64,000 nucleotides of DNA, from NCBI RefSeq assembly GCF_900143055.1, contig NZ_FRCW01000003.1:124001-188000 (forward strand). The letters are read 5' to 3'. This stretch comes from Fibrobacter sp. UWR3 (GTDB lineage: Bacteria > Fibrobacterota > Fibrobacteria > Fibrobacterales > Fibrobacteraceae). The notes under the pieces are model-generated. The model worked only from the letters and a program-made list of their open reading frames with translations. It ran no database searches and was not told the DNA's origin. Position 1 is the stretch's first letter. Every line of letters begins with the position of its first letter. This document shows positions 5,809 to 64,000 of this stretch, in pieces. Made by a program: the position numbers and the translations under genes.

Positions 5809-7074
5809 TTATTCCTCGATACGGTAGATTTTCACGTCCTTGATATAGAACGTGCGTTCCATCTTGCCGAGGTTCAGTTCGAACCTTGCAAACGGAGTGC
5901 TTTCGCTCGGGGTAAATTCCTTCTCGAACGACTGGCCCGAAGTCTTCACAATCGGATGTTCCATGAAGCCCACGGTCTCGTAATCATCGTAAGTACCGAT
6001 ACGTGCCGTAATCTGACCTTCGACATCGGACCAGATGGTAAACACGCACTTGTACTTCTTTTTCGCGACAAGCGCGACGTCTTCCTGGATAAGCTGCACG
6101 CTATAGGACTTGTTGCCACCATTGGTCACGACCACCTTCAGGTAGCGTTCGCCGCCCTTTTCTTCTACCACGTTGGCCGTCGCCACGCCGTTCATCTGCG
6201 TGAAGAAAATCCAGTGAGCCATGCCGTCGGCGAAATTACCGTTTTCAATAGTATTGTCGCTCATGGCACCGACAACGCCGTCCCAAATATCCTTGACGAA
6301 ATCCTCGCCCTCGTTGCCCTGGGCATCCACGAAGTCGTAACGCAGCGGGCGGAATGCCGATACAAAGTTGTTGTTGAGGGCATTCCACAGCGCCGTATTG
6401 TTGGCATTGTTGAAGTAGATTGTCCCGTCTTCGTCAATTTCGGCCTTGGTCAGGTCCAAGCCCTGTACAAAGTAACGCACGCGGAAAATCACAGACAAGT
6501 TTGCAACGGAATCGGACACGCGTTCAATCTGCGAGAAGTGGTAGCGCAGCCTTACCCTCTGGAATCCGTTCAGGTCGTACACGAACGGGACATACTTGCC
6601 GTCAATCAGTACCCGACCGCAAATAGTGGACTCTGCCCCTTCGGGCTTGAACGACACGCCTATTTCTTTCAGGTAGCCCTGATCTTCGAGGTTGATGTTC
6701 TTGAACGGTTCCTCCACCGAGGAGCCTTCCGTGAACGAAATGGGCAAGGAAGTTTCCGGAGAGTCTTCCTCGGGCCAGATCGGCAAGCCTTCGATCGGAT
6801 CGATGGAAACTGCAACGTAATAGCTGGAATAAGAACGCACCTCGAACAGAGACATCGAGAATGAATCCAGCAACACAGGTTCATCCTTCGCGGCGGACTT
6901 CAAGAGGGCATTTTTTTCAACTTCGGAATAATCCACAGAAAAATCCGCAGTGAGCGCGAGCGCCGGGTTACCGATTTCGATACCGGCAATAGGATCGGAG
7001 TTACCGCCGGAAGAACATCCGACGACGGCAAGCATTCCCAGCACGCAACAAACTATGGACCAAACAAGACGCAT
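5809..7074 (-). CDS. Lipoprotein with C-terminal CBM4/9-like domain, coupled to TIGR02147 gene
   Basis: 421 residues. The signal peptide ends in a lipobox (VVGC, about residue 20), so the protein should be lipid-anchored in the envelope. After the anchor comes AGIEIGNP, a motif with relatives in other lipoproteins here. The middle is unassigned. The last ~150 residues (ENGNFADGMAHW to the end) look like a family 4/9 carbohydrate-binding jelly roll: the N-gF.-g...W opening, the Q-L-I-Q-EDV.L segment and the KYKCVFTIWSD strand. The start codon shares a base with the stop codon of the TIGR02147 gene upstream (TAATG), so the two are translationally coupled. I infer a surface glycan-binding protein controlled or served by its TIGR02147 partner. 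Confidence 0.8.
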   Translation of the reverse strand: MRLVWSIVCCVLGMLAVVGCSSGGNSDPIAGIEIGNPALALTADFSVDYSEVEKNALLKSAAKDEPVLLDSFSMSLFEVRSYSSYYVAVSIDPIEGLPIWPEEDSPETSLPISFTEGSSVEEPFKNINLEDQGYLKEIGVSFKPEGAESTICGRVLIDGKYVPFVYDLNGFQRVRLRYHFSQIERVSDSVANLSVIFRVRYFVQGLDLTKAEIDEDGTIYFNNANNTALWNALNNNFVSAFRPLRYDFVDAQGNEGEDFVKDIWDGVVGAMSDNTIENGNFADGMAHWIFFTQMNGVATANVVEEKGGERYLKVVVTNGGNKSYSVQLIQEDVALVAKKKYKCVFTIWSDVEGQITARIGTYDDYETVGFMEHPIVKTSGQSFEKEFTPSESTPFARFELNLGKMERTFYIKDVKIYRIEE

Positions 7075-7922
7075 TATACTCCTCGAGTAAGCGGAAACAG
7101 TTGTATGTTCACCTGAACCACATCGTCCGCTTCGCCAGGCTTTGCGGAGAAATCTAGTAGTTCTTTGCGCATGAGTTGGATATGTTTTTTCAAATTGGGA
7201 AAATCTGAGCGCTTGATACTGAACGTCAGTGCAGATATATCGCGTTCCGCACTCGGGAGTTCATTCATCATGTTGGCCGAGATGCGCAGCATCTGCTGGT
7301 GATAGAGTTTCACCATCATGTCTTGCACTTCGTCATCGGTCGTGAGCATCGGGTCGCGCTGGCGGTAACCGTTGGCGGTTTTCACCAGGAGGCCGAGTTC
7401 CATAAGGAGGTCAAAAGATTCCTGCACCTGCGAGGGCGTGACCATGCCGCGGAGTTTGCGGCTCACCCAGTCGGGAATCGGGCGGAAGCCCTTGAGGGCG
7501 ACCATTTCCAGAATGACGGAGTGGTGCCATTCGCGGAAGATGCGGAACTGCGCCTGGTCCATCTTGTGCAGCTTGGAGCGCGGGCTCGCCTTGAGGAGCT
7601 GCGCATAGTATATCTGCTTTTCGGTGTCGTTCTGGGCCTGGTTAAAGAACACCAGGCTTTCGAAATAAGCGGCACGCTGCTTTTCGAGGCCTAAACCCTG
7701 GATGAGCTTCAGTACGGTTCCCTTCGTGATATTGCGCTTGCCGTCGATGGTAAGCTTCAGGTGGGCGTGGCTCGACAGCCCCGCCTTCTCAGCGAAGAAA
7801 CGCAAACTGAAAGAGGGCTGCGTCTTTTTCTTGTATTCGTAGTAATCACGGAGATACACACGAAAGTTGGTGTACTGCAGCACATCCGGTTCAGTTAAAA
7901 TTATTTTCTCACCATTGTCCAT
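7074..7922 (-). CDS. TIGR02147 / DUF4423 family protein, probable regulator
   Basis: 282 residues from the ATG at 7920-7922; a TTG 12 codons upstream is the alternative. The N-terminus (YTNFRVYLRDYYEYKK...PSFSLRFFAEKAGLSSHAHL...GKRNIT) matches the TIGR02147 opening, where an XRE-like helix-turn-helix is plausible. The C-terminus (DISALTFSIKRSDF, then VQVNIQLFPL) matches the ending of the other two family members in this window. The biochemical role of the family is not established to my knowledge; DNA binding is inferred from the N-terminal helices. The gene is directly coupled to the CBM-like lipoprotein at 5809-7074. It is cytoplasmic, with no signal peptide. Confidence 0.85.
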   Translation of the reverse strand: MDNGEKIILTEPDVLQYTNFRVYLRDYYEYKKKTQPSFSLRFFAEKAGLSSHAHLKLTIDGKRNITKGTVLKLIQGLGLEKQRAAYFESLVFFNQAQNDTEKQIYYAQLLKASPRSKLHKMDQAQFRIFREWHHSVILEMVALKGFRPIPDWVSRKLRGMVTPSQVQESFDLLMELGLLVKTANGYRQRDPMLTTDDEVQDMMVKLYHQQMLRISANMMNELPSAERDISALTFSIKRSDFPNLKKHIQLMRKELLDFSAKPGEADDVVQVNIQLFPLTRGV

Positions 7923-7997
7923 GCCTATAAGATAGCAGAATGTAAGCTTTAGGAACAAAAAAATTTACGTTTTCGTGTTTACCCAAGAAACCAGGGG

Positions 7998-8022: not shown

Positions 8023-8135
8023 TTGCGGGTTTTGGACCGTTTATTGCGGGTTTTGGACCGTTTATTGTGGGTTCAAGACCGTTTATTGCTGGTTTTGGAC
8101 CGTTTATTGCTGGTTCAAGACCGTTTATTGCGGGT
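8023..8135. repeat. 21-bp tandem array, five copies plus a partial
   Basis: Copies start at 8023, 8044, 8065, 8086 and 8107, each TTG-C/T-GGGTT...GACCGTTTA in form; two variants alternate (GGTTTTGGACCG and GGTTCAAGACCG). The last full copy supplies the stop codon of the acetyltransferase gene on the minus strand (8125-8127). A related 20-bp array lies at 58596-58675. Confidence 0.9.
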
Positions 8136-41298: not shown

Positions 41299-42960
41299 TC
41301 AGCGCGGTTGCAAAGCAGGCCAGTTCATTGACTGGTTCAAGTAGGTGAGGCGCGTCCAGGTATCGTCGCGGAAGCAGCCGCCCACCATGAGTTCGTCGAG
41401 TTTGCCCGTAAAACCGCCCACCTGGAAATCGGTCAGGGAATCGCGAGAACCGTCCCAGTCCGTTTTTTCCGGTGAACCAGAAACCTTTGCGTCGTTCACG
41501 TAGAACACAATCTGTTCCTGCGCGCGACTGCTGAACGCCACATAAGTCCACTCGCCCGCCTTGATTCCGTCCGCACCCGAAGTCCAGGAAACCTTGTAGC
41601 TTGCGGTATCGGCGCTATCCGCAGGATCCGTCACATGATATATTTCCACGACAAAACCCTTTTCGGGAACATAGAGCAGCGCATATTCCTTTGGCTTCTC
41701 GAAGATGGTCTGTTCCTTGTCGAGCGCATCAAGTTCTACCCATGTCGAGAAGCAGAAATAACCTTTCACGTCAAAAACGAGGTTTACCTTGTGCGAAGTA
41801 TCTGCGATAGCAGAATTCTCGGCGACAATAACATCGCCTTCATCAAGTTCCACTCCCCTGCCCACAACACCGTCGGCAGCCACGGCCCCTGTCGGCAGAC
41901 CTTCGAAGTAGCCCTTTTCCGCTCCATCGTCCACAGGTGCAAGGCCGCTATCGAAATGCCACACCAAAGAATAGCTGCGGTTCGTGGGGAACACATCCTT
42001 CGCGTAAGCGGGGTCCATCGTGTTGTCAAAATGGAGTTCCAGGGAATCTGAAACATTCAGCGAATCGACACTCACCCAGAACACGGCCTCCTTGGCAGAA
42101 GCGTCAAAGTAAGTCTGCGTAATGGGGAGTTTCTTGCTGCGGTTCCCGTCCTGCGAAACGCGCACGGCTTCCCAGCGGCCGTTCACCACCTCCGCGGAAT
42201 CGAAAACAATTTCATTTTCTGTCAAGCGGATAGCCAACGGGAAATCGCTCACGACGGTGCCGAGCGAATCGATTCCTTCGGGGAGTGCGAGCGGAGCTTT
42301 CAATGTGTACGTCACCGAATCGCCCCAAACTGTCGTTTTGTTTGGTTGTACCGCAATATCTTCAAAACCTACCGGGAACAAATTGTCCATGTAAATGAGA
42401 AGATCGAACGTATCTGCCGGGAGGCTATCGACCACGATTTTCCCGTTCTGCACAGAAACCCTTCTGCGAATTGTCGTCCCGATGACGATGGCCTCGCCAC
42501 CCTGGTTTTCGCGGAACTCGTCCGATACGAGAAACTTGACCGTACCCGGACCTTGCAAAGTGTCATTTACAGCAAGGGGCTCATCCTCTTCGGCGCTCAA
42601 GTTCTGCAACAGGAGCATCTGGCCCGATTCCTGGTGGAAAGCCTCGAGAGAAAAATTACCCGACGGGATGGAGTCAAATTCATAGTTTCCGTTTTCATCC
42701 GTTTCGGTTTCGAACGCGGAAGGCAGGACCTGTTCAGCCTCGCTTGCGGCAATGATGTTGTAGTTGCCCGGCACGCACTGAACCTTCGCATATGCGGCCG
42801 GCTTGCCGTCGTCCAACATCAAGATACCCGCGAGTTCCGGGGAACCCGTCTCGGCGCTGTTGCCCGCCACATCGTCGTTCGAACACGCCGAAAGGAGCGC
42901 CGCCGCACACGCGAGGGCACACCAAAGACGACAGTGCGCAATCCATTGTCCGTTTCTCAT
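41299..42960 (-). CDS. Large lipoprotein with regulatory-like, DUF2341 and LamG-like domains
   Basis: 553 residues from the ATG at 42958-42960. Lipobox LLSACS (about residue 26), then AETGSPELAG, a motif shared in form with other lipoproteins in the window. Residues ~40-120 form a carboxypeptidase-regulatory-like fold (GKPAAYAKVQCVPGNYNI, TDENGNYEFDSIPSGNFSLEAF). A DUF2341-like part (FPLAIRLTENEIVFDSAE, WVSVDSLNVSDSLELHFDN) is followed by a LamG/concanavalin-like module (YSLVWHFDSG, FCFSTWVELDALDKEQTIFEKP, GEWTYVAFSSRAQEQIVFYVND, GKLDELMVGG). It is likely an outer-membrane sugar- or cell-wall-binding protein. No TIGR02147 gene is coupled to it here. Confidence 0.85.
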   Translation of the reverse strand: MRNGQWIAHCRLWCALACAAALLSACSNDDVAGNSAETGSPELAGILMLDDGKPAAYAKVQCVPGNYNIIAASEAEQVLPSAFETETDENGNYEFDSIPSGNFSLEAFHQESGQMLLLQNLSAEEDEPLAVNDTLQGPGTVKFLVSDEFRENQGGEAIVIGTTIRRRVSVQNGKIVVDSLPADTFDLLIYMDNLFPVGFEDIAVQPNKTTVWGDSVTYTLKAPLALPEGIDSLGTVVSDFPLAIRLTENEIVFDSAEVVNGRWEAVRVSQDGNRSKKLPITQTYFDASAKEAVFWVSVDSLNVSDSLELHFDNTMDPAYAKDVFPTNRSYSLVWHFDSGLAPVDDGAEKGYFEGLPTGAVAADGVVGRGVELDEGDVIVAENSAIADTSHKVNLVFDVKGYFCFSTWVELDALDKEQTIFEKPKEYALLYVPEKGFVVEIYHVTDPADSADTASYKVSWTSGADGIKAGEWTYVAFSSRAQEQIVFYVNDAKVSGSPEKTDWDGSRDSLTDFQVGGFTGKLDELMVGGCFRDDTWTRLTYLNQSMNWPALQPR

Positions 42961-58775: not shown

Positions 58776-61346
58776 TTATTGCAGGGTTTGAGACGCAGCG
58801 GAATAGCGACGAATTAAACGGCCCGCACGGGTGTATTCCACGACGATGACGCGGACGGCGGGCATCTTCGCGGGCATCCTGTCGCCAGCAAACAGCGGGC
58901 GCCCCTGCATGTCGAAGATGCGGTAGAAGGCGGTCTCGGCCTCGGTCGCCCAGTTCGTACGTTGCGCAATCAGGGTCGTTCCACTGCTCGATTCCACGAT
59001 TTCACCCGAAGATGATTCCGGTTCAGCACTCGAAGACGATTCGGGAGCGTTCGGGTCGGTCACCACGATGCGGCCGCTCTTGACAAAGGTCGAATCGTTG
59101 TTGGTGGCCGTGACGGTGAAGGCATATTCGCCAGCCGCAGTGGGAGTGCCGCTGATAGAAATCTTGCGGTTTTCCTTATCGATGCTGGTCGTAACGCCCG
59201 TCGGGAAGCCCTCGGGCACGACCGTCTCGGCACCACTCCAAGTGTAGCAGAAATCCACAATTGGTTCGCCCAGATTGATGCTCTGGCTGCTGGAACCGGC
59301 CCCACACTTCACAACCTCAGGGTAGGCAGTCCCTTCGACGGAGAAGGTCACGAACGCGGACATCTGCGAAAGGCCAGAATTGTCCGTCACAACAGCGACC
59401 GCGGAATACACGCCCGGTTCAAGCCCACTCGCGTTGACCTGGTAGGGAGCGCTTGTCGCAGAGCCGACCAAAGTATTGCCCACATAGAAGGCGACGCTCT
59501 TTACGGAACCGTCGTTGTCCTTTGCATCGGCCTTCAAGGTCACCGTCGCACCCACTTCGAACTTCGCACCCGACGCAGGGGCGGTCATCGAGACCGTCGC
59601 CGCCTTGTTGCTCAGTCCGAAAGCCTGGTTGTATTCGGGCATCTTGCCGTAGCGGCCACCCACGCCCACGAGTTTCGGGAGGTCGGTAGGAAGGCTTGAA
59701 TTGCTGCGTAGTTCGTAAGAATAAGAAGGCGTAAAGACATTGTCGTTGAACGCCGACGCTTGAGATGTTCCATTGTTGTTATAGGGGGTGGAGCTCTTTG
59801 CTCCGGTGACCGTCGTATTCTTGAACTTGATCAAGGAAAAGGCATCCTTTCCGGCCACCTGAATTTGCGGATTTTTCACATAGTTGTTTTCGTAAAGGAC
59901 TTGCGTCTTCTTGTCGCTTTTCCCGGAGGCATCAATCACATGCCAGTGGTTGTAATCCACATAGGAATTGTAGATGTGGACCATCGAGGCGTAGGAACCA
60001 TCCGCCTCGCTCGTCACCTTGGGAACACGTCCGAAAGAATTGTGCCAATAGACATTTGCAAAAGTCAGCTGCGCCGTTTCGACCAGGTGCATATACGGAT
60101 CGTAATAGTAGCAGTTGTACTCGTTGCTGCCATCATAGTCTAGATACGAAACGGTGATGCCCTTGACATATTCCAAGTCCATGCCGTCGCTAATCCACTT
60201 GTAGCTGATGTGGTCGAACCACATATTTTCAACTTCCTTGCCGCCGCTACCGCTCACTTCGAGACCATCGCCCCCCTCGATAAGGTGCGGGTTCACATCG
60301 TAAAGGGCCAAGTTGCGATAAATGTTGTTCTTGGCACCTTCGTAGGAACGGTTTGACCACGAAACACCGCGCATATTTGCGCCACGGCCCATACCCACGA
60401 GGCTTTTGTTGCCCTTGGTCGTAATCCAGTTGCTCCAACTCTTGATTTCACCCGCAGACACCATCGTGGTCTGTTCGCTAAGGCCGGAACAGCTGTTCTG
60501 CGTAAAGCTGATACGGTAAAAGGTGTTATTGGAATTGACAGTGTTGCCACAGGAAGACTTGCACCAAGTCCATCCCGAATTGGCGGCAGATGTGGCCGCA
60601 TCTACGAACTTTCTGAAGTCGTAAGTACCTTCGGGCACAAGGATTGTCACCGCATCGTTACTCTGCATATGCTTACGAATAGTGGCGGTATCGCTCGCGA
60701 TGACGATGTTACCCGCATCGCCGCCGGTGGTATTGGCGCCGAAGCCTTCGGCCTTCACGTTGAACGTGAAAAGCAGGACGGCCGTCGGGTCGGTTTCCGC
60801 GCCGCTCCAAATCCACTTGGCCTGCGTATTCGCTGCAAATCCCGTAAGGGCAGCCCCGCTCGGGAGCTTGTTGTTCGCATAGTTCAGGGTTGTCGCACCA
60901 CCCCACTGGCTAAGGTCGCGGCCCTTGTTTTTCCAGGAGTTGTTGCCGACAGTCGGCTTTGCCTTCCAGCCGCTGCCGGAATAATAGGACTTGTCGAGGT
61001 CATCAATCTGCACCATTACGCCGGGGGCACCCTGACCGTTCACGCCCACGACAGAAATCGCGTTCTCGCCGGGAAGGAAGGTCATCGGCACAAAGCGCAC
61101 GCGGCCCGCCTGGTTGTCTTCGGCAAGGAGCGCACCGTTATGGTAGAGCCTGTAGCCGCCATCGGCCACAATCCAGATACCCGGACCCTCGCCCGCATTG
61201 TATGTCGCGGCCACCAGCTGCGAACCCACCTTGTCACCACCACCGTAGGCGGCGTCGCCCGGAAGCGACACCACCTCGGAGGGGCTTATCGCCGCGGCGG
61301 CAACCCACACTCCACACGCCACGGTACCAAACATCCTTTTCATCAT
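58776..61346 (-). CDS. Secreted PL1-type pectate lyase, multidomain
   Basis: 856 residues from the ATG at 61344-61346 (a second ATG follows directly), preceded by GAAAGGGTG. Signal peptide MMKRMFGTVACGVWVAAAAIS. Residues ~20-190 form an accessory beta-rich domain with W-rich strands. The parallel beta-helix of PL1 follows (~220-560): NIYRNLALYDVNPHLIEGGDGLEV, MWFDHISYKWISDGMDLEYVKGITVSYLDYDGSN, YWHNSFGRVPKV, VHIYNSYVDYNHWHVID. Then come a bacterial Ig-like module (VSMTAPASGAKFEVGATVTLKADAKDNDGSVKSVAFYVGNTLVG), a putative-Ig module, serine linkers, and a C-terminus like a type IX sorting domain (YRIFDMQGRPLFAG). It should cleave pectate by beta-elimination. The divergent TIGR02147 gene may regulate it. 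Confidence 0.93.
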   Translation of the reverse strand: MMKRMFGTVACGVWVAAAAISPSEVVSLPGDAAYGGGDKVGSQLVAATYNAGEGPGIWIVADGGYRLYHNGALLAEDNQAGRVRFVPMTFLPGENAISVVGVNGQGAPGVMVQIDDLDKSYYSGSGWKAKPTVGNNSWKNKGRDLSQWGGATTLNYANNKLPSGAALTGFAANTQAKWIWSGAETDPTAVLLFTFNVKAEGFGANTTGGDAGNIVIASDTATIRKHMQSNDAVTILVPEGTYDFRKFVDAATSAANSGWTWCKSSCGNTVNSNNTFYRISFTQNSCSGLSEQTTMVSAGEIKSWSNWITTKGNKSLVGMGRGANMRGVSWSNRSYEGAKNNIYRNLALYDVNPHLIEGGDGLEVSGSGGKEVENMWFDHISYKWISDGMDLEYVKGITVSYLDYDGSNEYNCYYYDPYMHLVETAQLTFANVYWHNSFGRVPKVTSEADGSYASMVHIYNSYVDYNHWHVIDASGKSDKKTQVLYENNYVKNPQIQVAGKDAFSLIKFKNTTVTGAKSSTPYNNNGTSQASAFNDNVFTPSYSYELRSNSSLPTDLPKLVGVGGRYGKMPEYNQAFGLSNKAATVSMTAPASGAKFEVGATVTLKADAKDNDGSVKSVAFYVGNTLVGSATSAPYQVNASGLEPGVYSAVAVVTDNSGLSQMSAFVTFSVEGTAYPEVVKCGAGSSSQSINLGEPIVDFCYTWSGAETVVPEGFPTGVTTSIDKENRKISISGTPTAAGEYAFTVTATNNDSTFVKSGRIVVTDPNAPESSSSAEPESSSGEIVESSSGTTLIAQRTNWATEAETAFYRIFDMQGRPLFAGDRMPAKMPAVRVIVVEYTRAGRLIRRYSAASQTLQ

Positions 61347-61530: not shown

Positions 61531-62382
61531 ATGGGCGAAAAGAAACCGTTAAAGAAAATCTTCGAATACCTGGACTACCGGGAATTCCTGAAAGATTACT
61601 ACAATGCCAAGAAGGAGGCGAACCCCGCCTTCTCGCTCCGCGTGTTTTCTGACAAGATCGGTTTCAAGGCCAAGGACTTTATAAGCCGCGTGATGAACGG
61701 CGACAAGAACCTTTCGAGCCAGAGCATCCCCAAGGTCGCAAGCGGCCTCAGGCTCGGCAAGCACGAGACGGAATTCTTCATAGCGCTCGTCAAGTTCAAC
61801 CAGGCAGAAACTACCGAAGAACGCAACGGCGCATTCGGCGAGATGCAGGCCGTACTCAAGGTGGTGCGATTCGCCGAAAAGCAGCACCTGCTGGGGCACG
61901 CGCAGTACATGGTTTATAGCCACTGGAGGCACCTTACCATAAGGAGCCTCATCGGCATGTACGGCTTTGACGGAGATTACGAGGCACTCGCCAGGCGCGT
62001 ACACCCGCGCATCACCGCCGAAGAGGCGAAGGCTTCCGTCAAGTTGCTCGAAGACTGCATGCTCATCAAGAAGGGCAAGAACGGCAAGTACGCGCTGACG
62101 GAGAACGCGATTACCACGGGCGACCGCACGTCGAAACTCGCTCTCCGCGGGTTCCACCAGGATTGCCTGAAGCTCGCCGCCGATTCCATCGACCGCGACC
62201 CGCCGGGCACACGCCACATTTCAGGGCTCACCCTCGGGATAAGCCAGGAAGGCTACGAGCGCATCGTGGAACGCATCAATGCATTCCGCAAGGAGATTGC
62301 GCTTATTGCCGAAGAGGACGAGAACAGCGACAAGGTTTTCCAGCTGCAGTTCGCGCTGTTCCCTGTCGGCGGCAAAGACTAG
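61531..62382 (+). CDS. TIGR02147 / DUF4423 family protein next to pectate lyase
   Basis: 283 residues. N-terminus YLDYREFLKDYYNAKKEANPAFSLRVFSDKIGFKAKDFISRVMNGDKNLSS and C-terminus HISGLTLGISQEGYERIVERINAFRKEI...VFQLQFALFPV match the other two members. A helix-turn-helix at the N-terminus is inferred. The gene diverges from the pectate lyase, with 184 bases between the starts, and its stop codon overlaps the stop of the convergent CBM11-like lipoprotein gene (62379-62382). No lipoprotein is coupled to it directly, so the pectate lyase is its likely partner or target. Confidence 0.88.
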   Translation: MGEKKPLKKIFEYLDYREFLKDYYNAKKEANPAFSLRVFSDKIGFKAKDFISRVMNGDKNLSSQSIPKVASGLRLGKHETEFFIALVKFNQAETTEERNGAFGEMQAVLKVVRFAEKQHLLGHAQYMVYSHWRHLTIRSLIGMYGFDGDYEALARRVHPRITAEEAKASVKLLEDCMLIKKGKNGKYALTENAITTGDRTSKLALRGFHQDCLKLAADSIDRDPPGTRHISGLTLGISQEGYERIVERINAFRKEIALIAEEDENSDKVFQLQFALFPVGGKD

Positions 62383-63545
62383 GGAGCAGGCGCTTCTACA
62401 GAATCTATTCCCTCAAACACGATCTCGTCGATTTCGAGGAAACTGCCGCTACTGGCAAAGATGCTCACGAACCCGATTTCGTGGGCGATATTTTTCCATT
62501 CCACCTGGTACACGGATGCATTTAGCTTTTCCCTGCCGGGCCTGAACACGAATTCCTTCCAGGCGGTGTCGGCAGTCGCGTGCCAGAGCGATTTCTGGAA
62601 GTTATTGTCGCCAAGATCCTTGTAGTGTTCCAGCGCGAAACTGAAATCGCAGTCCCCGCGAACCTTCATGCGGATGGCGGTGAGCGCGCTCAGGTCGTAA
62701 TAGCCCGTGTCGAGCCCGAGATGCGTGCCGAGAAGCACGTAGCCAGAATCGCCCAAATCGAACTGCAGGGAAAGATGTTTCCCGCGGGCACCGTCCACGA
62801 TGGCACCGCCGAACCCGCCTACAGAATCAGGCTTAATCCAGGTTGCCGTACCCGAGGCGATATAGTACCAGCCGTAGTTCTTGTAAGTCTTCGCGAGGTT
62901 GTTCAGGCTGTCGCCATCGTCAAAATCCTCGAAGACGAATTCGCGGGTCTTTCCGGGAACGTTCACGAGCGTGTCGGCTTCGGCTCCTGCTTCGAGCGAG
63001 AACGTGGCGACAGCGGAATCTCCGGCGACCACGGTGAACATGCCTGCGGGGACGTGAGCGAATACGTAATCGCTTCCGGAGCGCGAGGCCATGTAGGGGG
63101 TAGATTCCAGGCGCAGGAATTCAAAGACCTCTTCGTCAGTCGTCGCTCCCGTACGCAGCGTGAGCGATGCCGACGGGGCGAGCTCGATTTGCGTCGCAAT
63201 TTCGGTCTCGGAAATGGCGGGCTTGAATTCGCTCCAGTTCATGAGTGCGGAATCTGCCCCGGCGATACCTTCGACAAAGCAGTTCCCGCTGGAACATTCT
63301 TCTGCGAGCGAATCGAAGTGGGCTAGTCCCGAATCGTTGGCGACGGCACTATTGACTACTGCAAAATCTGCCTTCGAATACAGGGTAACACGCGCCTGAG
63401 GAATCGGATCGCGATTTACATCATACACCGCGACGGCAATCCCGTTCGTCGTCTCGCTCGTGGCGCCTGCAGTCTCGGAGCCGCTGTCGGAACAACCGGC
63501 AAGCAAGGTCACGCCCAATATTAAACACTCCACAGCCCTTTTCAT
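62379..63545 (-). CDS. Lipoprotein with CBM11/CIA30-like domain, coupled to TIGR02147 gene
   Basis: 388 residues from the ATG at 63543-63545, inside the TGA of the upstream TIGR02147 gene. Lipobox LLAGCS (about residue 18), then SETTNGIAVAVYDVNRDPIPQARVTLY, a carboxypeptidase-regulatory-like module. From about residue 210 comes FVFEDFDDGDSLNNLAKTYKNYGWYYIASG...LSLQFDLGDSGYVLLGTHLG...YDLSALTAIRMKVRGDCDFSFALEHY, like the beta-sandwich of CBM11 or CIA30. It probably sits in the outer membrane and binds a glucan or related glycan. The layout copies that of 5809-7922. Confidence 0.85.
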   Translation of the reverse strand: MKRAVECLILGVTLLAGCSDSGSETAGATSETTNGIAVAVYDVNRDPIPQARVTLYSKADFAVVNSAVANDSGLAHFDSLAEECSSGNCFVEGIAGADSALMNWSEFKPAISETEIATQIELAPSASLTLRTGATTDEEVFEFLRLESTPYMASRSGSDYVFAHVPAGMFTVVAGDSAVATFSLEAGAEADTLVNVPGKTREFVFEDFDDGDSLNNLAKTYKNYGWYYIASGTATWIKPDSVGGFGGAIVDGARGKHLSLQFDLGDSGYVLLGTHLGLDTGYYDLSALTAIRMKVRGDCDFSFALEHYKDLGDNNFQKSLWHATADTAWKEFVFRPGREKLNASVYQVEWKNIAHEIGFVSIFASSGSFLEIDEIVFEGIDSVEAPAP

Positions 63546-64000
63546 CGTTCTTCCTTTTTCATCATCGGGAACAACTGGAAATTTAACTGATAAACGCTGT
63601 CGCAAATTTGCGAAGGCATCGCATTGACCACATTTACGATGGATTTTCGCGTCTCGGCGAGGATTTCGCGGATTTTTTCAATCTGTTTCGAGTCGAGCGC
63701 CATCGTGAGCGTGCTGATATCGCGCTTTTCCTTGGGGGTATCGGCGATGGACTTGCGGGCAAGTTCCGCAATGCTCGCCTGGTAGTCGCTGATGCAGGCG
63801 CTCAGCCAGTGTTCCTTCGTCTTGAGGTGGGCCTCGGTAGGCACCACGCGGCCGTCCTTGCGGGTATGCGCGAGCCCGAGCTGCAACAGCGCGTCTACTG
63901 CGGCCTGTACCTGCGTGGCGGTGAGTTTCGGGACGCTGCTCTCGCCAAGCTTTGCGGCATCCTGCGGGCCACGGTAGTCGAACACGTCGAGGGCCGAACG
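63542..64000 (-). CDS. TIGR02147 / DUF4423 family protein (partial at window edge)
   Basis: C-terminal ~152 residues; the frame runs on past 64000 (SALDVFDYRGPQDAAKLGE at the edge), so the N-terminus is outside the window. Shared ending: RDISTLTMALDSKQIEKIREILAETRKSIVNVVNAM...VYQLNFQLFPM. Its TGA overlaps the ATG of the CBM11-like lipoprotein, the same coupling as at 7074. Probable regulator of its partner. Confidence 0.85.
   Translation of the reverse strand, partial: RSALDVFDYRGPQDAAKLGESSVPKLTATQVQAAVDALLQLGLAHTRKDGRVVPTEAHLKTKEHWLSACISDYQASIAELARKSIADTPKEKRDISTLTMALDSKQIEKIREILAETRKSIVNVVNAMPSQICDSVYQLNFQLFPMMKKEER

Follow-up and report, generated by a model that had tools for sequence, protein, structure and literature searches.

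Regulator and lipoprotein genes in the window

The DNA analysed here, hereafter the window, is a stretch of 64,000 nucleotides from Fibrobacter sp. UWR3 (contig NZ_FRCW01000003.1, positions 124,001 to 188,000). Near its left end, a regulator gene of the TIGR02147 (DUF4423) family overlaps the gene of a lipoprotein; a second pair lies at the right end, accompanied by a third, solitary regulator, and an orphan lipoprotein is found in between. The features are as follows.

5809..7074, minus strand: partner lipoprotein of the window pair, 421 aa, its start codon sharing base 7074 with the regulator stop (borne out by orthologs)
5866..6255, minus strand: CBM4/9 domain of this lipoprotein, residues 274-403 (Pfam PF02018, E 5.8e-11; Foldseek)
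6964..6984, minus strand: codons of GIEIGNP, residues 31-37 of this lipoprotein, at most 20 residues from the lipidated Cys20, pLDDT below 50
7074..7922, minus strand: TIGR02147/DUF4423 regulator of the window pair, 282 aa (profile matches, AlphaFold2, fold comparison)
7925..7936, minus strand: conserved promoter-like element CTATCTTATAGG, directly before the regulator ATG (alignment of 28 upstream regions)
7977..7992, minus strand: candidate operator GGTTTC-N4-GTAAAC, situated 70 nt before the start codon of the regulator
41299..42960, minus strand: orphan lipoprotein with the partner motif (CSNDDVAGNSAETGSPEL), no regulator adjoining
61531..62382, plus strand: third TIGR02147 regulator, solitary, converging on the second lipoprotein, absent from the earlier note
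62379..63545, minus strand: partner lipoprotein of the second pair, 388 aa, overlapping its own regulator by 4 nt
63441..63470, minus strand: codons of the motif AGATSETTNG in the second partner, [AS]GATSETTNG in 17/17 readable orthologs
63542..64000, minus strand: second TIGR02147 regulator, its 5' part beyond the window, end at G000:C3:188390

The three regulators score 332, 302 and 91 bits against TIGR02147, the last value belonging to a partial gene; the curated cut-off is 50 bits. The regulator of the window pair accounts for the 332 bits (E 2.6e-99) and also matches PF14394/DUF4423 with an E-value of 8.8e-38. Its partner begins with a lipoprotein signal peptide (lipobox VVG|C), and the model contains no further membrane-spanning helix. 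An earlier note on this DNA, made from the sequence alone, had described the two genes as fused by overlapping codons and the lipoprotein as ending in a glycan-binding-like domain. The TAA stop and the ATG do have base 7074 in common, but the genes overlap without being fused. The domain is confirmed both by Pfam and by Foldseek, where solved CBM4 domains match the predicted C-terminal domain (CelK CBM4, 3p6b, E 5.9e-12, TM 0.70). The same note saw the layout recur at 62379-64000; there the overlap of regulator and lipoprotein is real, whereas Pfam gave no CBM4 match in the second lipoprotein, only a sub-threshold match to CIA30.

Several further observations concern the surroundings. A tandem array with 5.4 copies of a 21-bp unit (TTGCGGGTTTTGGACCGTTTA) lies at 8023-8135, between the candidate operator and the next upstream gene, and is not found in the aligned orthologous promoters. 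The solitary regulator is divergent from a gene for a large secreted Ig-domain protein (58776-61346), and a close relative of it in another genus (L140) is likewise solitary.

AlphaFold2 modelled the window regulator with a pLDDT of 91. By fold comparison, it is predicted to consist of an XRE helix-turn-helix (residues 17-97, Z 6-9 to HTH domains) and an ArsR/MarR-like winged helix (residues 114-280); the second of these assignments comes from the alignment of the C-terminal domain. Among the matches listed in this comparison, neither chains of the TPR type, as in RRNPP peptide-sensing regulators, nor sigma factors are prominent. The best PDB matches of the regulator profile are XRE, HigA and C-protein chains (best E 0.0078), and a Bdellovibrio relative matches HTH_3 with an E-value of 1.1e-4. 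The search for a sigma factor in the regulator gave no significant match, PF04542 failing the cut-off at E 0.065.

Pairing in Fibrobacterota and Bdellovibrionota

The genome of UWR3 holds 29 TIGR02147 matches, of which one is a fragment and 28 are full-length. After 26 of these 28, at -17 to +75 nt, comes a lipoprotein gene, compared with 5 of 171 (3%) control genes in the same loci; the layout is therefore not due to chance. Across the phylum, the family occurs in 91 of 101 genomes, many of which contain about 25 to 90 candidate copies each. A sample of 128 TIGR02147 genes, drawn from many families, had 118 paired members, 114 of them at -35 to +15 nt, with the exact 4-nt overlap (-4) as the commonest spacing (51/118). 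Two of the ten exceptions proved to have a partner when inspected, in one case at a spacing of about +310 nt, and few of the genes are solitary.

The window regulator is present in 30 of 31 congeners and is single-copy in all but one. In every readable ortholog (29/29) the next gene encodes a lipoprotein with GIEIGNP. The genome with the duplicated regulator, G114, was omitted from this count and from that of the promoters given below (28/28); its examined copy has neither the upstream site nor an adjacent lipoprotein. The second pair is found in all 11 good-quality genomes tested. The idea of a module, put forward in the earlier note, thus receives strong support from the phylum sample, and neither pair varies at random between the species compared. 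The same note expected the envelope partner to bind glycans, which applies to the window pair with its CBM4 domain and to some others, three with a concanavalin-like lectin domain and one with a pectate lyase among the 26 partners in UWR3, while most partners have other or unknown domains. Fib_succ_major domains are present in six partners.

A Bdellovibrio plasmid relative led us to a second set of 80 loci, from Bdellovibrionota and including a few other labelled MAGs. An exported protein follows 74 of these 80 TIGR02147 relatives, 68 at -35 to +15 nt, against 51 of 353 control genes (14%) with the same arrangement. Three of the relatives were scored and reached 84-126 bits, above the cut-off of the family. 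Pfam gave no match on the one Bdellovibrionota partner tested. The plasmid-borne unit itself (L143, AP029177.1) shows a 4-nt overlap with a gene for a secreted protein whose N-terminus reads IGNGGNEIAL, and IS elements are not far off. No relative was found in a scan of viral contigs, in a single-protein scan of genome contigs, or in phage records.

Overlapping start and stop codons, so often at exactly -4, could also serve stoichiometric translation only, the TIGR02147 protein being a cytoplasmic chaperone or quality-control factor that does not bind DNA. We consider this highly improbable, given the predicted helix-turn-helix and winged-helix fold, the conserved palindromes upstream of the regulators described below, and partner genes that also lie upstream of the regulator or divergent from it.

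A motif behind the signal peptide

The exported partners have a short motif in common directly behind the signal peptide, [AS]G-x-x-[ST][ED]T-x-N[GTA] or [VLI]AG-x-x-[TS][ED]T-x-N-[TGAP], which in mature Fibrobacterota partners sits a few residues beyond the lipidated cysteine. In the window lipoprotein the motif takes the form GIEIGNP, and no other invariant run in 26 orthologs is as long; AlphaFold2 left residues 1-58 without confident structure. An invariant run in a stretch predicted to be unstructured is what one expects of a short linear motif to which another protein binds. Bdellovibrionota partners carry GNGGD, NGGG or ETQNGG after a Sec signal peptide; GNGG-type motifs are present in 40 of 68 partners versus 5 of 107 other exported proteins. 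The common [ED]-[TV]-x-N-G core suggests that the sequences of the two phyla represent one motif.

Third codon positions of the motif vary like those of the rest of the gene. As they are free, we rejected an RNA or DNA element, and the motif is selected as protein. We also asked how its divergence follows that of the regulator: the correlation is 0.36 for the partner body and 0.14 for the motif. Co-divergence of the motif with regulator subtype is thus unsupported, the body tracking the regulator better, and the motif is a common feature, not a pair-specific key.

Two observations were made on individual proteins. The orphan lipoprotein at 41299-42960 combines the motif VAGNSAETGSPEL with a concanavalin-like lectin domain, and this motif is similar to that of partners which, in other species, stand beside a regulator (L028, L029). 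At L016:4527-5900, the first lipoprotein after the regulator has no motif, but the next lipoprotein of that operon carries TAGGTVDGNSIA.

The motif suggests that the partner reports back to its regulator, possibly before export. The partner would then act as sensor: its N-terminal motif, within the precursor, the nascent chain or a returned peptide, would bind a conserved pocket of the co-translated regulator, which would in this way gauge how its own surface protein is being supplied or exported. We offer this tentatively, as an extension of the autoregulatory explanation developed in the next section and not as its opposite. It agrees with the motif being the most conserved stretch of the partner, predicted disordered and selected at the protein level, and recurring in two phyla whose partners differ in membrane fate (lipoproteins or Sec-secreted proteins). 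The motif also goes with the regulator in any gene order: all five "unpaired" GNGG-type proteins of Bdellovibrionota adjoin a regulator, as third gene, just upstream or divergently. In a motif-profile search of the UWR3 genome, 14 of the best 15 matches are regulator partners, the orphan lipoprotein being the exception. On the other hand, motif divergence tracks the regulator no better than the partner body does, and a universal motif would permit cross-talk among about 28 regulators. The corresponding broader proposal, an undescribed class of regulators in Fibrobacterota and Bdellovibrionota that read a short N-terminal motif of their own exported partner before export, is possible but on the unlikely side.

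In Bacteroidota, a lipoprotein export signal is located after the lipidation site. The partner motif has the same placement, and it could accordingly be a signal for sorting or surface export unrelated to the regulator, which would merely control an adjacent target. Such a role seems doubtful to us, since other lipoproteins of the same loci have no motif, nor does the operator-linked GH5 lipoprotein introduced below, whereas non-lipoproteins of Bdellovibrionota do; moreover, the motif is nearly confined to regulator partners.

Candidate operators and a proposed circuit

The palindrome GGTTTC-N4-GTAAAC upstream of the window regulator occurs once in the window, against 0.03 expected. In the genus, G[GT]TT[AT]C-N4-GTAAAC is found at -68 to -72 in all 28 readable orthologous promoters, followed by TTTG and TATNTTT elements; the CTATCTTATAGG element directly before the ATG probably has a promoter role. 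Six orthologs from different genera show an upstream palindrome, G[GT]TTAC-N4-GTAA[AC]C as read off the alignment, imperfect in one of them. Inverted repeats are generally enriched upstream of regulators, over many spacers, but we discarded this enrichment as operator proof because it is unspecific and terminators could give the same signal.

Only five distinct matches to GKTTWC-N4-GTAAAC exist in the UWR3 genome. One is the promoter of the window regulator, one lies 94 nt upstream of the gene for a GH5 cellulase lipoprotein (PF00150, E 3e-45), and another has a CotH-kinase lipoprotein on one side and a secreted protein on the other. Over 31 genomes, the strict form yields 32 matches versus 3 for the reversed pattern; of 30 inspected, 16-17 are located 49-55 nt upstream of window regulator orthologs and others before GH5 genes. 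The palindrome precedes 11 of 17 short GH5 orthologs (7 strong and 4 weaker ones in the same place), mostly 93-103 nt before the start; the other six keep a half site only, and the palindrome is absent from all 11 long GH5 paralogs. Four genomes of the genus (L242, L243, L252 and L258, locus position 1501) have the same palindrome, as GGTTAC-N3-GGTAAAC, 128-170 nt before the gene of a small membrane protein, a possible further member of the regulon.

The second pair has a palindrome of its own, GTGGACA-N4-TGTC[AC]AC, kept in nearly all 18 upstream regions; in UWR3 it is degenerate by one base, with one weak match elsewhere in the genome. A third subfamily carries conserved GTGTTC direct repeats upstream; elsewhere in the UWR3 genome, a close site without an evident target lies at C8:72934, and another falls inside a coding sequence. 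With distinct sites in the three cases, the operators appear to be pair-specific.

Conserved promoters can carry sites of other factors, and the palindrome might belong to a global regulator that controls both the operon and the cellulase. This is unlikely in our view: the matches in UWR3 are just five, one being the regulator's own promoter, and the second pair has a different palindrome, as pair-specific sites predict.

We now propose that the TIGR02147 proteins are one-component transcription factors, each made from an overlapping message that it shares with a single dedicated exported protein, and that each would act on its own operon through a pair-specific upstream palindrome. For the window regulator, the recognised sequence would be G[GT]TT[AT]C-N4-GTAAAC, which lies about 54 bp ahead of the point where transcription presumably starts; a copy of this site would also place the GH5 cellulase lipoprotein gene under the regulator's control. 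We assign a probability of roughly 0.7 to this reading, in which the transcription factor regulates itself, is dedicated to one exported partner and, in the first pair, has a cellulase in its regulon; the pairing, the motif, the predicted fold, the conserved site and its presence before the GH5 gene are seen in the sequences. Controlling its own operon and the GH5 gene, the unit would couple the display of the CBM4 lipoprotein with cellulase production. The site stands upstream of the promoter-like elements, a position typical of an activator, which suggests activation; we infer this sign of regulation, as we do the binding of this site by the window regulator and any feedback of the partner on it. 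Carbohydrate sensing by the window pair is plausible, given that a cellulase gene has the candidate operator in front of it as well.

The closest parallel is offered by SigI/RsgI, the carbohydrate-sensing sigma/anti-sigma pairs of Clostridium thermocellum (PMC12203970, PMC4711584). Both systems comprise multiple paralogous pairs per genome, with adjacent genes for a regulator and a surface protein, some with CBMs, and the regulation of plant-cell-wall enzymes, here proposed from the candidate operator. Unlike SigI/RsgI, however, the TIGR02147 regulator is a predicted XRE/winged-helix DNA-binding protein and not a sigma factor, and its partner, either a lipoprotein or a secreted protein, lacks transmembrane and cytoplasmic portions. 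The enterococcal regulators PrgX and TraA are XRE proteins that read lipoprotein-derived peptide pheromones. They resemble the TIGR02147 regulators in the XRE DNA-binding domain and in the link to the N-terminal region of a lipoprotein, but have a TPR-like peptide-binding domain where the rest of the TIGR02147 regulator is a predicted winged helix.

The TIGR02147 (Fsuc_second)/DUF4423 family is unnamed and has members by curated score in Fibrobacterota and Bdellovibrionota. Our search found no literature on TIGR02147, and neither the pairing, the motif nor the operator in any paper; DUF4423 has one mention, Bd3700, which is up during Bdellovibrio growth in prey. Cellulase control in Fibrobacter is an acknowledged open question, few recognisable regulators being found near cellulase genes (PMC3079729; PMC6204037). 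The TIGR02147 pair may help explain how enzymes are controlled in fibre-degrading bacteria of the Fibrobacter type, and experiments can directly address each of the elements proposed here: one particular regulator, its candidate 16-bp site, a putative cellulase target and a surface partner with a CBM4 domain. A function is thereby proposed for an unnamed family, with a link to the predatory Bdellovibrionota through a motif common to the exported proteins. Were the motif the regulator's ligand, the system would be categorically new among paired regulators and surface proteins; and if it is read before export, dozens of surface proteins per cell would each be under feedback from their own export.
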